Shown here: one piece after another, positions 89 through 26,885 of the stretch
How positions within the stretch are numbered: position 1 is the first letter of the stretch
Layout: each line of letters starts with the position of its first letter
DNA from: a virus
IMG/VR virus record: IMGVR_UViG_3300022187_000156
Coordinates: 1 to 29,382 of that record
Length of the DNA stretch: 29,382 nt
Reading direction: 5' to 3' (one strand)
Position numbers and translations under genes: made by a program
The notes under the pieces: generated by a model
What the model was told of the DNA's origin: nothing
Databases searched by the model: none
The model's input: the letters and a program-made list of their open reading frames with translations, nothing else

Positions 89-2010
89 GTGAGTTCCGAA
101 CATACGGACAGATGGATGACCCTATCGTAAGAGATGGGGACAGAAGCTTCGTGGGTATCAATAGCTACCTTGAGCCAGAGACTTTGAGTGAGGGTTATGT
201 TCAGGACGCACAGGACATGCGTATGGACGGAGAGCGAGCTAGAGTCAGAAAAGGTTGGGATTTTCAAGCAGGACTCACAGGTATTTCACCATCATATAGC
301 TACAATGCAGGCACAGACCAAGTATGGGGGACGGGAGTTTATAGTGACCCAGATGACGGGAATAAGGAGTGGATCGTTAATGCCACAAGACGCAAAGCCA
401 TTCTCTGGAATGAAAGCGAGCAATTGTACGTTAATTACTACACAGTAGGCATTGACCACCCTGACGTAAGCACAGCCAACGACACATTTACTAAGAGCGG
501 TGGACATAGCTTACAGACAGGAAGTGCTGTGCAGGTTACAACAGACCTTACTTTACCATCTCCTCTTGCAATCAACACCACCTATTATGTCATAAAAGAT
601 TCTGACACTGTGTTTAAGTTGGCGGCAAGCTATGCGGATGCGATAGCAGGCACACAGATTGATATTACTACAAAAGGAAATGGTGAGCATACATTTCGTG
701 AGACAGTAGATAGCACGGCAAATCCTACGATTGTGCAGGGATTTAATCAGGTGTTCATCCTCAGATATAAGGCAAGACCTTTGGTGTGGGACGGAACGAT
801 TACTGCGACAGGCGATGTGGTAAATAGTCAGTTTGTCAGTCTCAGTAATACAGCAACTTTACAAGCAGGAGGTGCAGGAACAGGTGATGCGTTCCCTTCA
901 ACAGATTATGGCATTTACTTTCGTGATCGGCTATGGGGCATACAACCTCCTGATGTGGTCACTCCGACACAAGCAGTCAAGGGAGCACAAACAGTTATAG
1001 GGTCAGATTTACTGGAACCAAACAACGTCACGCCTACTGAATCTGAGTTCTACATGAATCAGGGGTCAGCAGACTGGACAGTTGGATTCAGTACATACCA
1101 AGAGAATAGCCTGATTGTATTTAATCGCAGGAGCATACGAATGCTCACCAATGTTCACGCCACTTCGATTAGTGAGAACTACCCAATCACCACAAGGTAT
1201 GGTTGTGCAGCAAGACGCTCAATAGCCCAAGGAGGTGGTTATATCTTCTTTTTGAGTGACGAGGGTGTGATGACCTTATCGGCTGCACAGGATAGCGTTA
1301 CAGGAATGGGTCTAACTGTCAGTAAGTTACAAGGCGGAACAGAGCCACTGAGTAAATCTATTCAGGAGCAGGTCAATAATATCGACTACACTGAATCGGT
1401 AGTGAAGTCAGCATGTGGAGTGATCCATGACAATAAGTATTATTTAGCAGTGCGTCTGACAACTGACAGCAGCAATACCACAGTCTTTGTTTACGACATC
1501 ATCAATCAGGCATGGGTCAGTAAAGACACGTATCCTAGTGGGATTGAAAACTTCCAGAAGATTATCTACAACCAGAAGATTCGACTCTTTGCCACACTAC
1601 CGACAGGGTGGTATTTGATGGAAGAAAACGCTGGGCTGGATGATACCAATCGGACTGTTGGCAGTGATTCGGAGACAGATACAGTAGCTATTACTGCAAA
1701 GTTAAAGACAAGGAATTACACATTTGGAACCAATGCAATTAAGCACTTTCAGCGAGTTAAGCTTGGAGTCAATGTTGTGTCTGGTGATGCTTTTACCATC
1801 AAGTGCAACAGCACAGACCCAGACATTACAAAGACTGTTGGATCATATACAGCAACAGGAACAGAAGACCTTGCGTTGAATTACGGATCAAGACAACGTG
1901 GATACAGTTGCAATATTGAGGTGGACGTAACGGCAGGGAGTCCAGAGTTTAGGTACGTAAGTCTATCGGGAACACAGCAGGAACAATTAGGACGCAGAGA
2001 GGTCAGTTAA
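85..2010 (+). CDS. Putative virion protein (neck/tail hub type, beta-rich)
   Basis: This 641-aa protein starts with GTG that overlaps the previous stop (GTGA); GGAAGG about 11 nt upstream can serve as ribosome binding site. The N-terminus carries the pattern DGDRSFVGINS followed by a GYVQDAQDMRMDGERARVRKG-like stretch, which I associate with a conserved family of structural proteins of podoviruses that lies next to the tail-fibre gene. The rest is rich in Thr, Ser, Gly and aromatic residues with many short predicted strands, as in beta-propeller or fibre-like virion proteins. It is followed after one base by the tail-fibre repeat gene, so both are probably made together late in infection. The exact role (head completion, tail hub or fibre base) cannot be decided from sequence alone. 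Confidence 0.6.
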   Translation: MSEFRTYGQMDDPIVRDGDRSFVGINSYLEPETLSEGYVQDAQDMRMDGERARVRKGWDFQAGLTGISPSYSYNAGTDQVWGTGVYSDPDDGNKEWIVNATRRKAILWNESEQLYVNYYTVGIDHPDVSTANDTFTKSGGHSLQTGSAVQVTTDLTLPSPLAINTTYYVIKDSDTVFKLAASYADAIAGTQIDITTKGNGEHTFRETVDSTANPTIVQGFNQVFILRYKARPLVWDGTITATGDVVNSQFVSLSNTATLQAGGAGTGDAFPSTDYGIYFRDRLWGIQPPDVVTPTQAVKGAQTVIGSDLLEPNNVTPTESEFYMNQGSADWTVGFSTYQENSLIVFNRRSIRMLTNVHATSISENYPITTRYGCAARRSIAQGGGYIFFLSDEGVMTLSAAQDSVTGMGLTVSKLQGGTEPLSKSIQEQVNNIDYTESVVKSACGVIHDNKYYLAVRLTTDSSNTTVFVYDIINQAWVSKDTYPSGIENFQKIIYNQKIRLFATLPTGWYLMEENAGLDDTNRTVGSDSETDTVAITAKLKTRNYTFGTNAIKHFQRVKLGVNVVSGDAFTIKCNSTDPDITKTVGSYTATGTEDLALNYGSRQRGYSCNIEVDVTAGSPEFRYVSLSGTQQEQLGRREVS

Positions 2011-2011
2011 G

Positions 2012-2638
2012 ATGCCATTACCAGTAGGTGCTCCATTAGACCCAAGCACATTTGGGGGTCTTTCAACCAAGGATACTGTAGATAATACTGACTGGTCAGG
2101 GGTAGATCTGTCTATCGTCAACGGGGGAACAGGAGCAAGCACCGCAGCAGGAGCCAGGACAAACTTAGGTCTAGGGGATTTAGCCATACAGAACACTGTA
2201 AGTAACGAAGATTGGGATGGTGCAGATTTAGCAGTTTCTAACGGAGGCACAGGATCAAGTACAGCAAGTGGAGCGAGGACAAACTTAGGTTTAGGAGATT
2301 TAGCTACCCAAAACACTGTGAATAACGGGGATTGGAATGGCTCGGATTTAGCCATCTCTAATGGAGGCACAGGATCAAGTACAGCAGGGGGAGCAAGAAC
2401 CAATTTGGGCTTAGGTAGCGTAGCTACGCAGGACTCTAATAACATTGCTATTACTGGAGGTTCTATCACAGGAACAGAGGTTACCTTAGAGACTTTTACT
2501 GTAGCAGGAGCACCATCGGGCAGTGTAGGGAGAATAGGGTACTGCACAGATGGAGACGCAGGGTCTGCGTGTTTTGTGGTGCATGATGGGACAGATTGGA
2601 AAGTCTTATCACTGGGGGCAACAATATCATCTACTTAA
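2012..2638 (+). CDS. Tail-fibre repeat protein
   Basis: This 208-aa protein is built mainly of 40-residue repeats beginning NGGTGxSTAxGARTNLGLG, a motif widely found in phage tail fibres where it forms trimeric shaft segments. Two full copies and one partial copy are present, preceded by a partial half-repeat (GLSTKDTVDNTDWSGVDLS). The C-terminal 60 residues contain an ITGGSITG element and a compact VVHDGTDWKVLS end, as at the tips of short fibres or connector proteins. It starts one base after the previous stop. The protein is short for a receptor-binding fibre, so it may be an adaptor or one segment of a fibre with the tip encoded elsewhere. Confidence 0.75.
   Translation: MPLPVGAPLDPSTFGGLSTKDTVDNTDWSGVDLSIVNGGTGASTAAGARTNLGLGDLAIQNTVSNEDWDGADLAVSNGGTGSSTASGARTNLGLGDLATQNTVNNGDWNGSDLAISNGGTGSSTAGGARTNLGLGSVATQDSNNIAITGGSITGTEVTLETFTVAGAPSGSVGRIGYCTDGDAGSACFVVHDGTDWKVLSLGATISST
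2060..2440 (+). repeat. 120-bp in-frame tandem repeats in the fibre gene
   Basis: Units begin at 2120, 2240 and 2360, each with an AACGG-type start encoding NGGTG; the last is partial and a half unit precedes 2120. Nucleotide identity is high between units 2 and 3 (for example GGAGGCACAGGATCAAGTAC in both), so copy number could change by recombination. Confidence 0.85.
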
Positions 2639-2642
2639 ACAA

Positions 2643-2984
2643 GTGACCATATTTGAACAGGCGAAACAATACTACGAGCAAGTTGGTATTGACATACACC
2701 TAGACATCGCCAATTATGCAATGCACGAAGGATATGTATTCCTCACTCCCGACTTCATGTTGTGGGGCAAACCCGTAAGACGGGATGGAGGACTTCCTGA
2801 CGCACAGTGGAAAGTAGCGGAACCAGACGCTTTTTATGTGCGGTTCGCAGTAGGGAAGGGATGCCTTGATAAATTCTTAAGCCTCACTCCTTTATGTAGG
2901 TTGCCATATATTGGTTGGAGTCGCTACTTAAAGAACAAACCTTTACGTTATTACAAGACAGAACAACTATTAAGAGGAATTTAA
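2643..2984 (+). CDS. Small conserved-looking phage protein, function unknown
   Basis: The frame is open from further upstream, but the GTG at 2643, four bases after the fibre stop, gives a 113-aa protein and avoids a 90-nt overlap. The sequence begins VTIFEQAKQYYEQVGID and contains GYVFLTPDFMLWGKPVRRDG and DAFYVRFAVGKG, a mix of helix and strands like a small single-domain protein. It lies between the fibre gene and the first internal virion protein gene. I do not recognise a named domain; it may be a minor virion or assembly factor. No transmembrane segment is evident. Confidence 0.6.
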   Translation: MTIFEQAKQYYEQVGIDIHLDIANYAMHEGYVFLTPDFMLWGKPVRRDGGLPDAQWKVAEPDAFYVRFAVGKGCLDKFLSLTPLCRLPYIGWSRYLKNKPLRYYKTEQLLRGI

Positions 2985-2985
2985 T

Positions 2986-4662
2986 ATGGGAGGCGGAGAC
3001 ATAAATTACCCTGCACAACCTAGCTACGGCGAGGGGTTGGCAGATGCAATGCGAGCACAAGCAAGCATGGCAACAGGAGCAAAGATTGGTGAAGAGACTG
3101 CTGGTGCAGACCTGCTGGCAGCATTGAAAGAGTCGGGATTGATTCAAGAGGGTCAGTTACTTGGCGAAGCGATTGCTGATATTGATAAGAGGATTCGCTC
3201 CAAATATGGACAGAGTGAAGTTGATCTTATTGGTCAGAGATTACTTGGGGATATTGAGCGGTTTGATGAGAAGGGCGAGATCCGTGAGACAGTCTATGAT
3301 CCGTATGATGATGCCGAACTAGGTGGCTACTACTACGCAAAGGGTGAAGATGAAGGTACGTTTGGCGGTAAGCAATACGAAAACTACCTTATGAAGGACG
3401 GCAAGATTGTTGCTGGTACTGACCAAGATATATCCACTGGAAGTTTATTACAGTACATTGATGAGGGCGATGACCCAGAAGCAATTAAAGCTGCATTTCA
3501 GAAACGCATTGATGAACCAAGGGGCGTTGCAAGAGAGGAAGTAAGGACTGGCGAGGCAGGCACCATTGCCTCAAGGTCTGGTGGACTCCTTGATTTATAT
3601 GGTGGCAGCACAAAGGTACGGCAGTACGATCCTGCTGCTTATGAGCAAGCCATTAGTGAAGGCAAGTCAGAGGAGGAAGCACAAGCCGCCGCAACAAAAT
3701 ACGGCACAGCAGGATTCGACCCAGAAACACAAGAGTTCCAAGGGTTGGTTCCCATGCAGCAACAGGCACAGGCATACCTTGCATCTCAGCAACGGGAGTC
3801 TGACATTGCCGATGTTGAGAAGTTTGGCACACGGGCAACAGAAGCAATCCGTGAGCAGGGAGACATTCGTGGTGCATTGTCTGATTTATCTACATACCAG
3901 AATAGGAACTTAGCTCAAACTGGAACTGCTCGCCAAATGCTAATGGGTGAAGCAATACGCAATATAGGACAAGGTCTATCAGCAAGAGAGCAACGAGATG
4001 TTGAGCAGGCAAGCCGACAAGCTGGAGCCGCAACAGGACGTATGCGTGATTTCGGGAGAGTGGTTGGAGAAGCTACAGCAGTAACAGAAGGTAATCGCTT
4101 ACGCCGACAACAGAACCTTGCACAAGCACAATCCATTCTTGGCTCTGAGATGGGCATGAAGGGGCAGGAGATGGCAATGGGACTCCAGAGGTTAGGTGCA
4201 GAGCAATCGACCGCAGCAGACCCAATGATGGCGATTCTAGGTAGACCTAGTTCAGCAGCACCCGCAGCAGGTGGACTCGCACAAATGGGAATGCAGACAC
4301 AACAGCAGTCAGGCCCACAATTCTTTAACCCAGAAGCAGGTCTGGGATACATACAGAACGCAGCAACCAACCAAGCCAACATTGCAGCGGCACAAGCTGG
4401 AGCACAAGGTAGTGCAATGAGTGGACTCTTCCAAGGATTAGGAACAGTAGGAGGAGCAGCACTTATGTGTTGGGTGGCACGGGAAGTATATGGTTCAGAT
4501 AATCCACGCTGGTTGCAGTTCCGTGCATGGATGCTGACCGACTCTCCAAAGTGGTTGCTCAATCTATATATCAAATATGGTGAGAGGTTTGCCAACTGGA
4601 TTAGCAACAAGCCAACAATCAAGAGTATGATCCGTTACTGGATGGATACCCGTATCGCATAA
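2986..4662 (+). CDS. Putative internal virion (ejection) protein 1
   Basis: This 558-aa protein starts at ATG with AGAGGA 7 nt upstream. Most of the chain is polar, Gln/Ala-rich and helical, typical of proteins ejected with podovirus DNA. The last 70 residues form a distinct aromatic tail starting CWVAREVYGSDNPRWLQFR and ending with KPTIKSMIRYWMD; I recall this tail at the C-termini of marine podovirus virion proteins, where its role is unknown. A Gly/Ala stretch (SAMSGLFQGLGTVGGAAL) just before it could be membrane active. It is the first of three consecutive long helical genes (558, 518 and 1292 codons), which fits an ejection-protein cluster. A long antisense open frame here is a codon-bias shadow. 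Confidence 0.6.
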   Translation: MGGGDINYPAQPSYGEGLADAMRAQASMATGAKIGEETAGADLLAALKESGLIQEGQLLGEAIADIDKRIRSKYGQSEVDLIGQRLLGDIERFDEKGEIRETVYDPYDDAELGGYYYAKGEDEGTFGGKQYENYLMKDGKIVAGTDQDISTGSLLQYIDEGDDPEAIKAAFQKRIDEPRGVAREEVRTGEAGTIASRSGGLLDLYGGSTKVRQYDPAAYEQAISEGKSEEEAQAAATKYGTAGFDPETQEFQGLVPMQQQAQAYLASQQRESDIADVEKFGTRATEAIREQGDIRGALSDLSTYQNRNLAQTGTARQMLMGEAIRNIGQGLSAREQRDVEQASRQAGAATGRMRDFGRVVGEATAVTEGNRLRRQQNLAQAQSILGSEMGMKGQEMAMGLQRLGAEQSTAADPMMAILGRPSSAAPAAGGLAQMGMQTQQQSGPQFFNPEAGLGYIQNAATNQANIAAAQAGAQGSAMSGLFQGLGTVGGAALMCWVAREVYGSDNPRWLQFRAWMLTDSPKWLLNLYIKYGERFANWISNKPTIKSMIRYWMDTRIA

Positions 4663-23033: not shown

Positions 23034-23403
23034 CGTTGAGTGTGTCTGCTGGTTCTAGGTGTGATTTAGGCATCTCCATCCCCAGAAGCATATTGGCTGG
23101 GCCATGTGGTATTTCAGGTAATCGAATAACTACCTGCCCTTGTTTTGCATTGGATGTGGTGTTAAAAACGAAATTATACCCAAATAGGCAAAGTTTATTT
23201 TCTGTGATAGCTAATTCTGACTTAATCCAATCTTGGACATGAAGAGTAACATAACAAGGTTTCATGCACCTATATAGGTGCTCAAATAACCCATCTTGGA
23301 TTGCTTTTGATATTTTATGCCTGAATATCCATCGACCTTTTTCGTTGTATTGTATTGCAAGGCATTTTTTAACCTTTGGTAATTTAACAGATTCTTCGCT
23401 CAT
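23005..23403 (-). CDS. Protein of unknown function heading the short leftward unit
   Basis: This 132-aa protein starts at ATG 23403 with AAAGGA close upstream, a good ribosome binding site. It contains RWIFRHKISKAIQDGLFEHL and YVTLHVQDWIKSELA, a strand-rich middle, and a charged C-terminus. Its last 29 nt overlap the 167-aa gene. It is divergent from the HTH regulator gene across a 76-bp gap and is probably an early gene under its control. No family is recognised. Confidence 0.55.
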   Translation of the reverse strand: MSEESVKLPKVKKCLAIQYNEKGRWIFRHKISKAIQDGLFEHLYRCMKPCYVTLHVQDWIKSELAITENKLCLFGYNFVFNTTSNAKQGQVVIRLPEIPHGPANMLLGMEMPKSHLEPADTLNDAKEKTGSL

Positions 23404-23427
23404 ATTTCCTTTTCTTGATTAAAGGGC

Positions 23428-23456
23428 TTGACATGTATTGGTAATTCCAGATGAAT
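23428..23456 (+). promoter_or_regulatory. Promoter-like TTGACA site in the divergent gap
   Basis: TTGACA (23428-23433) and ATGAAT (23451-23456) are 17 bp apart. GCTTG at 23426-23430 and CAAGC at 23458-23462 flank the site as an imperfect inverted repeat, which could be an operator. The gap lies between the leftward unit starting at 23403 and the HTH gene starting at 23480. Confidence 0.45.
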
Positions 23457-23479
23457 GCAAGCCGAAAGGAAGAAACAGC

Positions 23480-23929
23480 ATGATACAAGGATTTAAGGAA
23501 CGCTTTCAAAGCAGCCGTGTCACTCGCAAGGAGTTGGCAGAAGCGGCAGGAATCAAGGAGTCCACGCTCAAGCAGTACATATTCGGGGATCGTGTATCTC
23601 AGCATGTACTGGATACCTTTGAGAAGTTGGACAACCCGCAAGAGGCTTTACCCACACCTCCTATTAGTCCTCAAGAGGAGGAGGTCGTAACCAAATCGGA
23701 ATGTTCTGGGGAGAAGAAAGAAGATAAGTCAGTTATGATCTCCTCCACTGAGGTGATGGACGCACAGGTGTGCCAAGTGATGCCCAATAAGAACTTCAGG
23801 AAAGTAAGGATACTGAAGACAGGGGAGGTGGTTATGGCACGTTTAACGCCCCGCAGAAGGAACGAGTACACAAATCGTGGCAAGCGGCTACGTGTCAAGT
23901 TGACAGACAGCACATGGTGGGTGCAGTAG
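23480..23929 (+). CDS. HTH transcriptional regulator
   Basis: The start is ATG at 23480, with AAAGGAAG about 8 nt upstream; the frame is open further up but without a better start. The 149-aa protein has an N-terminal helix-turn-helix (TRKELAEAAGIKESTLKQYI, residues about 15-34) of the Cro/CI or XRE kind. A charged linker rich in Glu, Lys, Pro and Ser follows, and then a C-terminal basic domain (FRKVRILKTGEVVMARLTPR). No peptidase motif of a LexA/CI repressor is seen. The divergent position opposite the leftward unit and a repeat at the promoter suggest it controls the switch between blocks. Confidence 0.7.
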   Translation: MIQGFKERFQSSRVTRKELAEAAGIKESTLKQYIFGDRVSQHVLDTFEKLDNPQEALPTPPISPQEEEVVTKSECSGEKKEDKSVMISSTEVMDAQVCQVMPNKNFRKVRILKTGEVVMARLTPRRRNEYTNRGKRLRVKLTDSTWWVQ

Positions 23930-23942
23930 GATTTGTTTGGGT

Positions 23943-23951
23943 TGTTATACT
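23943..23951 (+). promoter_or_regulatory. Extended -10 promoter TGTTATACT before the terL unit
   Basis: TG at 23943-23944 followed by one base and TATACT (23946-23951) fits an extended -10 element; no good -35 is seen. The transcript would start a few bases before the stem-loop at 23967-24054. Confidence 0.4.
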
Positions 23952-23966
23952 ACTGACATGACTATG

Positions 23967-24054
23967 CTGGCACTAGGTTCATAGAGGTTTTTTATCACAT
24001 TTCTAACTCTAAAGGGATAACGGGATTGAGTTCCCCAAACCTGCCTAGTGCCAG
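23967..24054 (+). promoter_or_regulatory. Structured leader of the terL unit
   Basis: A perfect 11-bp repeat CTGGCACTAGG (23967-23977) / CCTAGTGCCAG (24044-24054) encloses nested stems AGGTTT (23985-23990) / AAACCT (24037-24042) and AACTC (24005-24009) / GAGTT (24028-24032). The next gene starts 12 nt later without a Shine-Dalgarno sequence. A structured regulatory RNA is likely; its ligand or role is unknown. Confidence 0.5.
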
Positions 24055-24066
24055 CGAATATTTATT

Positions 24067-24285
24067 ATGAAAGTAACAAGATACAGTACCGACTACGGAG
24101 AAGTAGACTTTATTGGTAACCCGCCTCTATTTGATGAGATATTGCATGCGGATCAGAAGTCAGTGCGGGAGGCACACAGGCTGAAGAAACAGGAGAGTGA
24201 GATTGGTAACGCACTAGAGAACCTACAAAACGTACTATTCCAGCAAATGGGTGTGATGCCTAAGATCACGATATGCCTAAAGTAA
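24067..24285 (+). CDS. Small protein directly before terL, function unknown
   Basis: This 72-aa protein starts MKVTRYSTDYGEVDFIGNPP and continues LFDEILHADQKSVREAHRLK, then a helical stretch SEIGNALENLQNVLFQQMG. Its last 13 nt overlap the terL start, so the two are coupled. Position just before terL is that of a small terminase, but it is short, lacks an evident helix-turn-helix and I do not recognise it. The ATG lies behind a stem-loop and has no Shine-Dalgarno sequence. Confidence 0.55.
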   Translation: MKVTRYSTDYGEVDFIGNPPLFDEILHADQKSVREAHRLKKQESEIGNALENLQNVLFQQMGVMPKITICLK

Positions 24286-26885
24286 CCTATGCCGACGAAG
24301 TAATCCCTGACTTTGGGATACCTTTTCCCACTGGTAAGCTGCGAGTGGAGAAGGGAGAACTCAAACTGGCACTATCGCCAGAAGAAATACAAGCCACCCC
24401 AGACGAGGAGTTGCAGACACTCTTTGATTTGATGGAGAAGCAGCCGATACTGGAGAAGCAAGATCCAGTAAAGTACGGGTGGACACTAGAGAGTTGGCGT
24501 AGGGTGATGGAGAATTGGAGGGACACCAAGATACACATCATACTTGGTGGAAATCGGTGTATTACAGGTGATACGCCCATCTTATGTGCAAAAACGGGGG
24601 TAGAACGCCCTGTGAGTTCCATAAAAGGGGAGAATGAGGTGCTTTCTATGTATCAGGGACGAGTGGTTAATACAAGAGCTGGAGAACCTTTTCGCAAGGG
24701 AGTGTTGCCAATTTTGCGTGTAACCTTGGAAGATGGGTCAAGTTTTCGATCTTCTCCTTGGCATATGGTTTTGGATTCAAATGGGATTTGGCGGCCCGTA
24801 GGTTCCCTGTCGCCGAAAGAAAGGCTTTACCAGCCGCAGTCCATTCGGGACACTTACCAGCGAGGGTTGCTGATAGATGAGCCGCATTCGTTTCAAACAC
24901 TTGAAGATTGTCAGGATCATTATTCTTGGTATTCCCATCAATGTGGTGAACTACTTCATCTGGTTTTAGAAATCGTCCGAGAGTTTTTTCAGCAACAAGA
25001 CGATGCTCCCAAACATAAGTTTGCTTTCGATAATATTTCCCGTCTGCTTTCTTTTCTCGTCTTTTATTTACAGCAACGCAGTAGGGATGTTCGGGACAGT
25101 ACACCTTTATGTACCCAGATTTGGAAATTACTTTACCACCTTTCCATTCAGGATGCTTCTCACCAGAGCGTGGCCCAGTTCGTTGACATTGTATCTGATG
25201 CTTTTTACACACCTTGTAAATCGACTTCGCATTTATTCTTGGGTCCAGCGAGTTTTGCAACTGCTGTGCGATCCACGCTTGAGTCTTGCCTTCATTTATC
25301 CAGTTACGAATCTGCTGAACTGGGTACTCTATCCGATTATGTAGTGCCATACGATCAATCCTTGGGGGGAATGTTCCGTGAGTCAAGAACTATTACCTCC
25401 ATCACTAAAGAGGCAGATGAAGAAGTTTGGGATATGCACGTACCAGAGGCACACAATTACTACGCCCAAGGTTGCTTCCACCACAACAGCACCAAGAGTA
25501 CGTTCGCCAATAGGTTGCTGGTGGATATGGCACAGAAGATTGATGAGGCCCGTATTTATCATTGGCACGATAACGAGGAACGCTCTGTAGTGGACGCACA
25601 AGCCACGATCTTTAATAGTCTGCCATTTGATCTACGTGAGAAGGGACAGAAGCGTGGAGGACAGAATTACAGTGTTACCTATAACCAGAAGACAGGATTT
25701 GTTGGAAGGTTGCCCACATGTATCTTGCCACCCCGTGATGGCATCGACAAGGGCAGTAGCATCTTCTTTAAGTATTACACGCAGTATTTGCAGAACCAGC
25801 AGGTAGCGGAGGGATTTAATGCACACATCGTAGAGATGGACGAAGAATGTCCGTTGAAGTTATTTCAGACAATGATTCCCCGTACAGTGGACTTTCATGG
25901 TAGGATCATCCTGACTTTTACCACGTTGCAGGGCTGGACTCCACTGATTGCAGAACTACTCAAGGGGGCAGAGACAGTGGCGACTCGGTATGCTCCGACA
26001 GAAGGCAGGGAGTTACCAGTGGAGCAGATATGTCATGCTTGGCCATCAGCTCGCATTTACTACTGGTGGACGGAAGACAATCCATTCATCGACTCACACC
26101 ACTTGGTTGAGCAGTACGTCAATCAACCAGCAGAGGAGAGACTGGCAAGACTCTACGGAATTCCCACTAAGACACAGCAGGGCAAGTTCCCGAAGTTTAA
26201 CAAGGATGTAAATGTCGTACCACATGGCGAAATACCATTTATCAAACACCCAGACAAATACCCAGTTACTCGTTATTTCATCACTGATCCAGCTGGCACT
26301 AAGCCTTGGGTTGCAGTATGGATTGGAGTTATAGGAGATGGTCGGGTGTATGTGTATCGTGAATCACCAACAGAAGAATGGTGTCAACCACACGTCAACA
26401 ATGCTGGCACACCAGTAGGTAAACCGAGTGTAGGACAGAAACCCAACGGATGGGGCTATTTACAGTGGAAGGAACACTTTATCGGCTTGGAGCAGGATGA
26501 AGAAATTATTCAGCGTATCTGCGACCCTGGTTTTGGAACCCAGAAGGTAACAAAGACCGATGGACAGACAGACATCTTTGCAGAAATGGCATCGCTAGAC
26601 TTTCACATGATCCCTGTATATCGTGGAGATGTGGAGTCAGGTGTGTCTAAGATCAACGACCTACTATCGTGGGATGATCGCAAGCCGTTGTCTGAGATCA
26701 ATAGACCACAACTGTATGTGAGTGACCAGTGTCAGAATACAATCAACTCAATGCTGGAATACACAGGGTGCAGCAAAGAAGAACATTGGAAAGATTTTGT
26801 GGATGCAGTTCGGTATGGAGTAGTTAATGGACTGCACTACTGTGAAGAAGGTGGGCTTGAAGCAACGGGTGGTGGAGGATATTGA
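24273..26885 (+). CDS. terL: Terminase large subunit precursor, interrupted by an intein
   Basis: The 870-aa precursor gives a 560-aa terminase after removal of intein residues 96-405. The ATPase has Walker A GGNR/STKS (residues 92-95 and 406-409) split exactly by the intein, and Walker B IVEMDEE (519-525). The C-terminal nuclease has RNase H-fold acidic residues at D672 (FITDPAG), D751 (ICDPGFG) and D841/D844 (FVDAVRYG). The joined P-loop GGNRSTKS has Thr in place of the usual Gly before Lys. The protein cuts concatemers and pumps DNA into the prohead with the portal encoded next. Without splicing the ATP site could not form, so packaging should depend on intein excision. An HNH gene lies opposite the intein. 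Confidence 0.92.
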   Translation: MPKVTYADEVIPDFGIPFPTGKLRVEKGELKLALSPEEIQATPDEELQTLFDLMEKQPILEKQDPVKYGWTLESWRRVMENWRDTKIHIILGGNRCITGDTPILCAKTGVERPVSSIKGENEVLSMYQGRVVNTRAGEPFRKGVLPILRVTLEDGSSFRSSPWHMVLDSNGIWRPVGSLSPKERLYQPQSIRDTYQRGLLIDEPHSFQTLEDCQDHYSWYSHQCGELLHLVLEIVREFFQQQDDAPKHKFAFDNISRLLSFLVFYLQQRSRDVRDSTPLCTQIWKLLYHLSIQDASHQSVAQFVDIVSDAFYTPCKSTSHLFLGPASFATAVRSTLESCLHLSSYESAELGTLSDYVVPYDQSLGGMFRESRTITSITKEADEEVWDMHVPEAHNYYAQGCFHHNSTKSTFANRLLVDMAQKIDEARIYHWHDNEERSVVDAQATIFNSLPFDLREKGQKRGGQNYSVTYNQKTGFVGRLPTCILPPRDGIDKGSSIFFKYYTQYLQNQQVAEGFNAHIVEMDEECPLKLFQTMIPRTVDFHGRIILTFTTLQGWTPLIAELLKGAETVATRYAPTEGRELPVEQICHAWPSARIYYWWTEDNPFIDSHHLVEQYVNQPAEERLARLYGIPTKTQQGKFPKFNKDVNVVPHGEIPFIKHPDKYPVTRYFITDPAGTKPWVAVWIGVIGDGRVYVYRESPTEEWCQPHVNNAGTPVGKPSVGQKPNGWGYLQWKEHFIGLEQDEEIIQRICDPGFGTQKVTKTDGQTDIFAEMASLDFHMIPVYRGDVESGVSKINDLLSWDDRKPLSEINRPQLYVSDQCQNTINSMLEYTGCSKEEHWKDFVDAVRYGVVNGLHYCEEGGLEATGGGGY
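24558..25487 (+). mobile_element. Intein in TerL Walker A, 310 residues
   Basis: The intein runs from Cys96 to Asn405 of the precursor. Block A is CITGDTPIL; block B is DGSSFRSSPWHMVL with His164 and Ser in place of the usual Thr; block F is VWDMHVPEAHNYYAQG with Asp387 and His394; block G is GCFHHN followed by Ser406. These are the residues of a class 1 intein, so it should splice. No LAGLIDADG or HNH motif exists in the sense frame between about residues 186 and 372; that span is low-complexity Ser/Leu/Gln/His sequence. It is the complement of an HNH gene on the other strand (24667-25350). Confidence 0.92.
24667..25350 (-). CDS. HNH homing endonuclease encoded antisense inside the TerL intein
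   Basis: This 227-aa protein is read opposite to terL and lies wholly within the intein. The start chosen is ATG at 25350 because AAGGA lies 8 nt upstream; a start 12 codons earlier has no such site. Residues about 9-50 form a helix-turn-helix-like region (IRNWINEGKTQAWIAQQL). Residues 79-150 match the HNH_3 family: GYIKVYCPEHP, VWEHRLVAEKTLGR with H116, EVVHHIDGN with H135/H136 and N140, and NNDPDNLQVF. The catalytic residues are intact, so activity is expected. The last 60 residues are encoded opposite the N-terminal splicing domain, including block B. It would make the intein mobile by cutting intein-free terL. Its promoter is not evident. Confidence 0.88.
   Translation of the reverse strand: MALHNRIEYPVQQIRNWINEGKTQAWIAQQLQNSLDPRINAKSIYKVCKKHQIQCQRTGPRSGEKHPEWKGGKVISKSGYIKVYCPEHPYCVAVNKRREKKADGKYYRKQTYVWEHRLVAEKTLGRFLKPDEVVHHIDGNTKNNDPDNLQVFETNAAHLSATLAGKCPEWTAAGKAFLSATGNLRAAKSHLNPKPYAKEKIENLTHLPRLHAKLATLPCEKVLQLLY

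Follow-up and report, generated by a model that had tools for sequence, protein, structure and literature searches.

The large terminase gene (terL) in the 29,382-nucleotide stretch of viral DNA analyzed here (the window) very probably contains a mobile mini-intein with its homing endonuclease encoded by a nested gene on the antisense strand, making two overlapping genes in one insert. The arrangement itself, its conservation, and the selection acting on both strands are well supported. The locus comprises the following features.

24273..26885, plus strand: terL, large terminase precursor, 870 aa unspliced and 560 aa spliced
24558..25487, plus strand: intein, 310 aa (930 bp), between GGNR and STKS of Walker A, with Cys1 at its start and His-Asn at its end, followed by Ser+1
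24558..24839, plus strand: N-terminal half of the Hint splicing domain, residues 1-94, AlphaFold2 pLDDT 92-97, with the fold of the NpuDnaB mini-intein
24840..25379, plus strand: sense linker, residues 95-274, open, not conserved as protein, mostly disordered by prediction, and missing from mini-inteins
25380..25487, plus strand: C-terminal half of Hint, residues 275-310, with blocks F and G, pLDDT 94-98, matched to 4o1r by phmmer
25350-24667, minus strand: HNH_3 homing-endonuclease-like gene, 227 aa from ATG, Pfam HNH_3 E 4e-10, pLDDT 83.2
24871..25320, minus strand: conserved core of the HNH protein, with an HTH-like region (~residues 11-50) and an HNH domain (~73-160), invariant residues, and predicted helices and strands

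The intein reads in frame with terL, beginning with CITGDT and ending with FHHN before the Ser. Intein_splicing was the sole Pfam family matched by the sense intein (7.8e-8, 32.7 bits vs. a curated cut-off of 35.8). The spliced extein matched the PHROGs terminase large subunit family (phrog_2, E 1.2e-10), and the unspliced product gave no terminase large subunit match in the PHROGs search. This homology, along with the Walker A motif at the insertion site, identifies the host gene as terL. For the AlphaFold2 model of the intein, the best PDB match was the mini-intein of NpuDnaB, with a target-length TM-score of 0.85, and nearly all of the model's 34 PDB matches at E ≤ 0.001 were inteins; residues 98-273, within the linker, mostly fell below pLDDT 50. 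In an alignment of 43 inteins, C1, block-B His69, W291-D292, His309, and Asn310 were invariant, and the +1 residue was Ser or Thr across relatives. Thirty-nine of the 43 matched Intein_splicing in the sense frame. The insert therefore shows the features of a class 1 intein: a predicted Hint fold, the splicing residues, and an in-frame insertion with an exact intein-free allele. The in-frame endonuclease domain of a canonical bifunctional intein was found in none of the 43 members. An endonuclease hidden in the sense frame was ruled out by the Pfam searches (0 of 43 matched an endonuclease family) and the predicted disorder of the middle region. Two claims of the earlier note are thus confirmed, namely, a TerL intein with splice blocks at exactly 24558-25487 and no endonuclease in its own frame.

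The insert was also found outside the window. Two IMG/VR contigs from other samples matched the window at 100% identity across 6.5-8.1 kb that include the locus, and because these identical contigs come from different samples, the locus is not an assembly error. The concern that misassembly had created the open antisense frame is further laid to rest by a diverged second allele with both frames intact. This allele, present in four contigs (L011-L014), is 930 bp long and 25.5% diverged with no indels, and both its intein and its 227-codon HNH gene are open. Two intein-free alleles, L010 (98% identical downstream) and L015 (92%), join GGNR and STKS exactly at the predicted splice points, with a single difference (CGC vs. 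CGG) from the window among the 12 bases that precede the junction. A search of the window with a degenerate pattern turned up no additional empty Walker A sites. Compared with L012 (5071-5970), the window (24558-25457) was 93-100% identical over most of its N-terminal Hint DNA, apart from one short divergent stretch near 24655, whereas the divergence was ~20-45% in the HNH block and in the C-terminal part up to the final 30 bp. This patchy divergence suggests recombination within the intein.

On the opposite strand, the complete 227-aa HNH_3-type gene that had been proposed from the letters alone was recovered as a minus-strand ATG frame; if the TTG at 25386 serves as the start, the protein would be 239 aa. 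The protein matched phage HNH endonucleases in PHROGs (8e-24), and its AlphaFold2 model was well ordered (mean pLDDT 83), showing helices in the N-terminal region as well as an HNH domain. Its top PDB fold match was I-HmuI, with a Foldseek probability of 0.99 but an E of 0.049. Many homologues were found, removing a further doubt that had been raised about the gene. HNH_3 was present in 26 of 26 relatives, and H116, H136, N144, N148, and H158 were invariant (24-26 HNH sequences), giving an HNH domain with its conserved H-N-H residues. N-terminal HTH families received weak scores in a few HNH members.

Searches with the HNH protein yielded 189 IMG/VR contigs and two GenBank phages (Koroua and PHS3) for analysis, forming two deeply diverged clades. 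The earlier note had called for a search of phage TerL inteins for antisense HNH genes at the same place, and in 191 of 191 loci, a TerL intein at Walker A enclosed the HNH gene in antisense orientation, with the relative phase of the two frames always the same. The intein splits Walker A as GGNR/SGKT in clade A and as GPVG/SGKS and similar sequences in clade B, compared to GGNR/STKS in the window. The two HNH clades are ~34% identical and their host terminases as little as 15% identical, with orientation and phase kept throughout. From the intein side, the best 80 matches were all antisense (80/80), and a search with the N-terminal Hint (95 residues) gave 75 antisense, 0 sense, 4 without HNH, and 1 at a contig end among its best 80; both searches were seeded from the antisense-HNH family, so these counts do not measure the frequency of other arrangements. 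The N-terminal Hint search used a narrower alignment set, as the diverse alignment offered no conserved stretch.

Carriers included named phages: the Pectobacterium phages Koroua, Amona, Ymer, Abuela, Sabo, Taid, and Pappous, Dickeya phage Setonix, and Pseudoalteromonas phage PHS3. For Koroua and PHS3, this rests on a direct reading of the opposite-strand frame, and for Setonix, on a reading of the HNH gene; in the remaining named phages, the TerL query matched in two pieces with HNH on the other strand. In the Koroua annotation, the terL reading is a hypothetical protein and HNH is unmarked; in that of PHS3, HNH is marked and terL appears shortened. Seven clade-B records look like isolate genomes rather than metagenomes from their IMG identifier numbering. 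Scans of bacterial genomes with the HNH alignments produced pattern matches, none of which encoded a relative, and the whole sense intein had no tblastn matches among GenBank phages. In the HNH tree, clade B formed one group and clade A was not separated from free-standing HNHs, and the two clades may represent one capture or two. In one locus, L054 (3300008107_007531), HNH was intact but the intein frame was reduced to 211 aa and lacked the block-B part; this is either a decaying copy or a misassembly. Elsewhere, HNH relatives at L127 (1956-3806) and L128 (1314-3638) were sense-oriented within genes annotated as DNA methylase/methyltransferase (Cr-LKS3, Mantra), and are possibly conventional in-frame insertions.

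Inteins at the same Walker A site also occur in a shorter form. Four loci (L306, L308, L310, and L322) contained mini-inteins of 130-132 aa with complete Hint domains and without the ~183-codon HNH block, and the extein of the L308 mini-intein was 90% identical to that of the HNH-bearing L302. These mini-inteins are consistent with gain or loss of HNH as a unit, in either direction. The suggestion that a free-standing HNH gene had invaded a mini-intein is supported by these HNH-less forms at the site, although loss would look alike. Intein and host gene also differed in their relatedness. Loci L003 and L019 had terL exteins 96% identical and inteins 68-75% identical; for L003 and L022, the values were 48% and 65-71%. 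The Koroua terL matched 845 phage records, and eight intein-bearing Pectobacterium/Dickeya records matched in two pieces; among the matches listed, all other records matched in one. One of the intein-free phages, Escherichia phage KW1E_UTAR, reads HPAFVAGFGTGKSQT where Koroua has HPAFVAGFG/C...HN/TGKSQT. This discordance between terL and intein, and the exact empty sites, speak for mobility of the intein, but could also be explained by ordinary recombination or intein loss.

Some terL genes carried another insert. In L059 (record 452-3976, minus strand), a second intein-like insert lies near the C-terminal end of terL, at ~residues 800-1140, and its sense frame matches LAGLIDADG_3 (4e-5); L037 is similar. 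Judging from these matches, sense and antisense endonuclease arrangements coexist in one gene, the L059 terL. In L095 and L096, the C-terminal part of terL contained another second intein-like insert (CFVAGT... ending in NC) with no recognized endonuclease.

In an alternative reading, HNH is a free-standing homing gene with the intein as its safe harbor, and it cuts some other site or a neighboring gene (intronless homing) with the intein as a passenger. Free-standing HNH relatives do occur in many phages, HNH-less mini-inteins persist at the same site, and conservation is higher for HNH than for Hint (e.g., 62% vs. 41% between L092 and L095). However, among the 191 loci, which were recovered through close similarity to HNH, the gene was located outside the Walker-A intein in 0, and the identities of HNH, Hint, and extein were positively correlated (0.55-0.72). 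We therefore consider this passenger relationship unlikely compared to a mobile intein that includes its antisense endonuclease.

Substitution patterns indicated which of the two overlapping proteins is conserved. Between the window and L012, substitutions within HNH residues 1-185 numbered 52, 30, and 90 at HNH codon positions 1, 2, and 3. Counted on intein codons, the same changes became 52, 90, and 30, making the second intein position the fastest, which fits HNH rather than the linker as the conserved protein. HNH retained 72% amino acid identity in this pair, compared to 40% for the sense linker (residues 95-264). Over 29 disjoint pairs of relatives, the HNH codon positions accumulated 480, 326, and 1236 substitutions.

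The intein frame, in turn, was kept free of stops. Conditioned on the HNH protein and phage codon usage, the probability that this frame is stop-free by chance was 2.5e-4 for the window and 5e-5 for the second allele. A chance open frame was ruled out by these probabilities and by the lack of stops across the family, as 134 distinct HNH genes contained 0 stops in the intein frame and an average of 5-10 in each of the other two sense-strand frames. A stop arises in the intein frame when an HNH codon NTT, NTC, or NCT precedes A. Among residues with a choice of codon, 76 distinct genes (clade A plus Koroua and PHS3) used such codons 0 of 1305 times before A vs. 2032 of 3658 times in other contexts, and 58 clade-B genes used them 0 of 927 vs. 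1684 of 3559 times. Pooled across both clades, they occurred 0 of 2,232 times where a stop would result vs. about half the time elsewhere; related sequences are not statistically independent and these stop and codon counts are descriptive, yet they are without exception. Ten free-standing HNH relatives had 3-17 stops in the frame corresponding to the intein. Selection on both frames, with purifying selection on the HNH codon structure, is thus well supported by these sequence comparisons.

The ATG and AAGGA site that the earlier note had assigned to the antisense gene are both real in the window, where a stronger site, GGAGGT, precedes the TTG 36 nt upstream of the HNH ATG. However, no Shine-Dalgarno sequence is conserved in the family: matches of at least 5 nt preceded 4% of HNH starts vs. 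3% in the background, and a conserved site as proof of HNH translation is accordingly unsupported. No sigma-70-like promoter was found on either strand within 24000-26000. Further upstream, window positions 23403-24067 form a divergent region between leftward genes (a DnaB-like helicase and a resolvase) and the rightward terL genes, and this is likely a regulatory region.

The lack of a promoter or a consistent Shine-Dalgarno could suggest that the antisense gene is a fossil, with a once functional HNH that is no longer expressed and a frame kept open solely by the avoidance of stops in terL. Yet avoiding stops on the sense strand gives the antisense frame no protection, and a fossil would not retain 72% protein identity at 25% DNA divergence, invariant residues in its catalytic region, and changes concentrated at the third HNH codon position in all pairs, whether close or distant, making this very improbable. 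Because selection acts on the HNH protein, our comparisons instead imply that it is made and used. Separate control of splicing and homing is plausible. Least credible is a tolerated plus-strand insertion that no longer splices, with HNH as the sole functional part, for although the window intein falls just under the Pfam curated cut-off (32.7 vs. 35.8 bits), it interrupts a motif required by terminase, none of the splicing residues varies among the 43 inteins, AlphaFold2 models the Hint fold at pLDDT >90, and complete 130-132-aa mini-inteins exist at the site.

Returning to a mobile mini-intein with a nested antisense endonuclease, we infer splicing, the cleavage site, homing, and antisense expression as follows. 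On the plus strand, terL would be translated through a Hint domain of the mini-intein type, with the 180-residue linker looped out. Hint would then splice as in class 1 inteins, using Cys1, the block-B His, the His-Asn at the end, and Ser+1, and so rejoin Walker A to give an active terminase. The linker would have no protein role of its own and would stay stop-free because a stop would truncate the terminase. The minus strand of the same linker DNA would produce an HTH-HNH endonuclease with an I-HmuI-like layout. This enzyme would cut terL copies lacking the intein at their Walker A codons, after which repair would copy the intein in.

To our knowledge, the endonuclease of known mobile inteins is a domain of the spliced-out protein, and splicing and homing therefore share one transcript. 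I-HmuI is encoded in a group I intron. In split inteins of fractured genes, a free-standing endonuclease gene lies between the intein halves; our locus similarly embeds a separate endonuclease gene, but its intein is contiguous and the endonuclease antisense. I-HmuI (PDB 1u3e), the top fold match, is likewise a small phage HNH protein; by contrast, the window HNH protein has an N-terminal HTH-like region and is known here from sequence and predicted fold. The mini-inteins in L306, L308, L310, and L322 share the site and Hint family of the window intein without the HNH block. A class 1 intein with an in-frame homing endonuclease is TliVMA (PMC8966425), and ours resembles such inteins in its Hint fold, Cys1, block-B His, and His-Asn/Ser+1, as well as in the position of the endonuclease between the Hint halves and in having inserted where the host protein has a conserved catalytic motif. 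Unlike in TliVMA and the L059 LAGLIDADG insert, the endonuclease here is a separate opposite-strand gene outside the translated intein. Antisense homing genes inside self-splicing elements are known from nuclear group I introns of Didymium (Dsq.L2066/I-DsqI and Dir.S956-2; PMC9548176). Those elements, however, encode His-Cys enzymes and are RNA introns in rRNA genes, so their sense strand need not stay open, whereas here the DNA is read as protein on both strands. The claim that no intein with an antisense homing endonuclease had been described held in our searches of open-access PMC papers, which turned up none. Known for group I introns, the arrangement is apparently undescribed in an intein, but priority is not certain.

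More tentatively, these loci may represent a widespread, old class in which an antisense nested endonuclease has a homing transcript separate from that of the terminase, and in which the antisense transcript may also regulate terL; this broader reading is possible, but we would lean somewhat against it. What the locus does place on opposite strands is two functions for which ~180 codons must make sense, or avoid stops, both ways. These are natural antisense overlapping genes, with a signature measurable in nearly 200 loci, and they show how an intein can house an independent HNH gene with no fusion between the two. They also expose a gap in annotation, affecting terL and HNH in Koroua and terL in PHS3. 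Because isolated Pectobacterium and Pseudoalteromonas phages carry the arrangement, splicing, cleavage, and strand-specific expression are directly testable.
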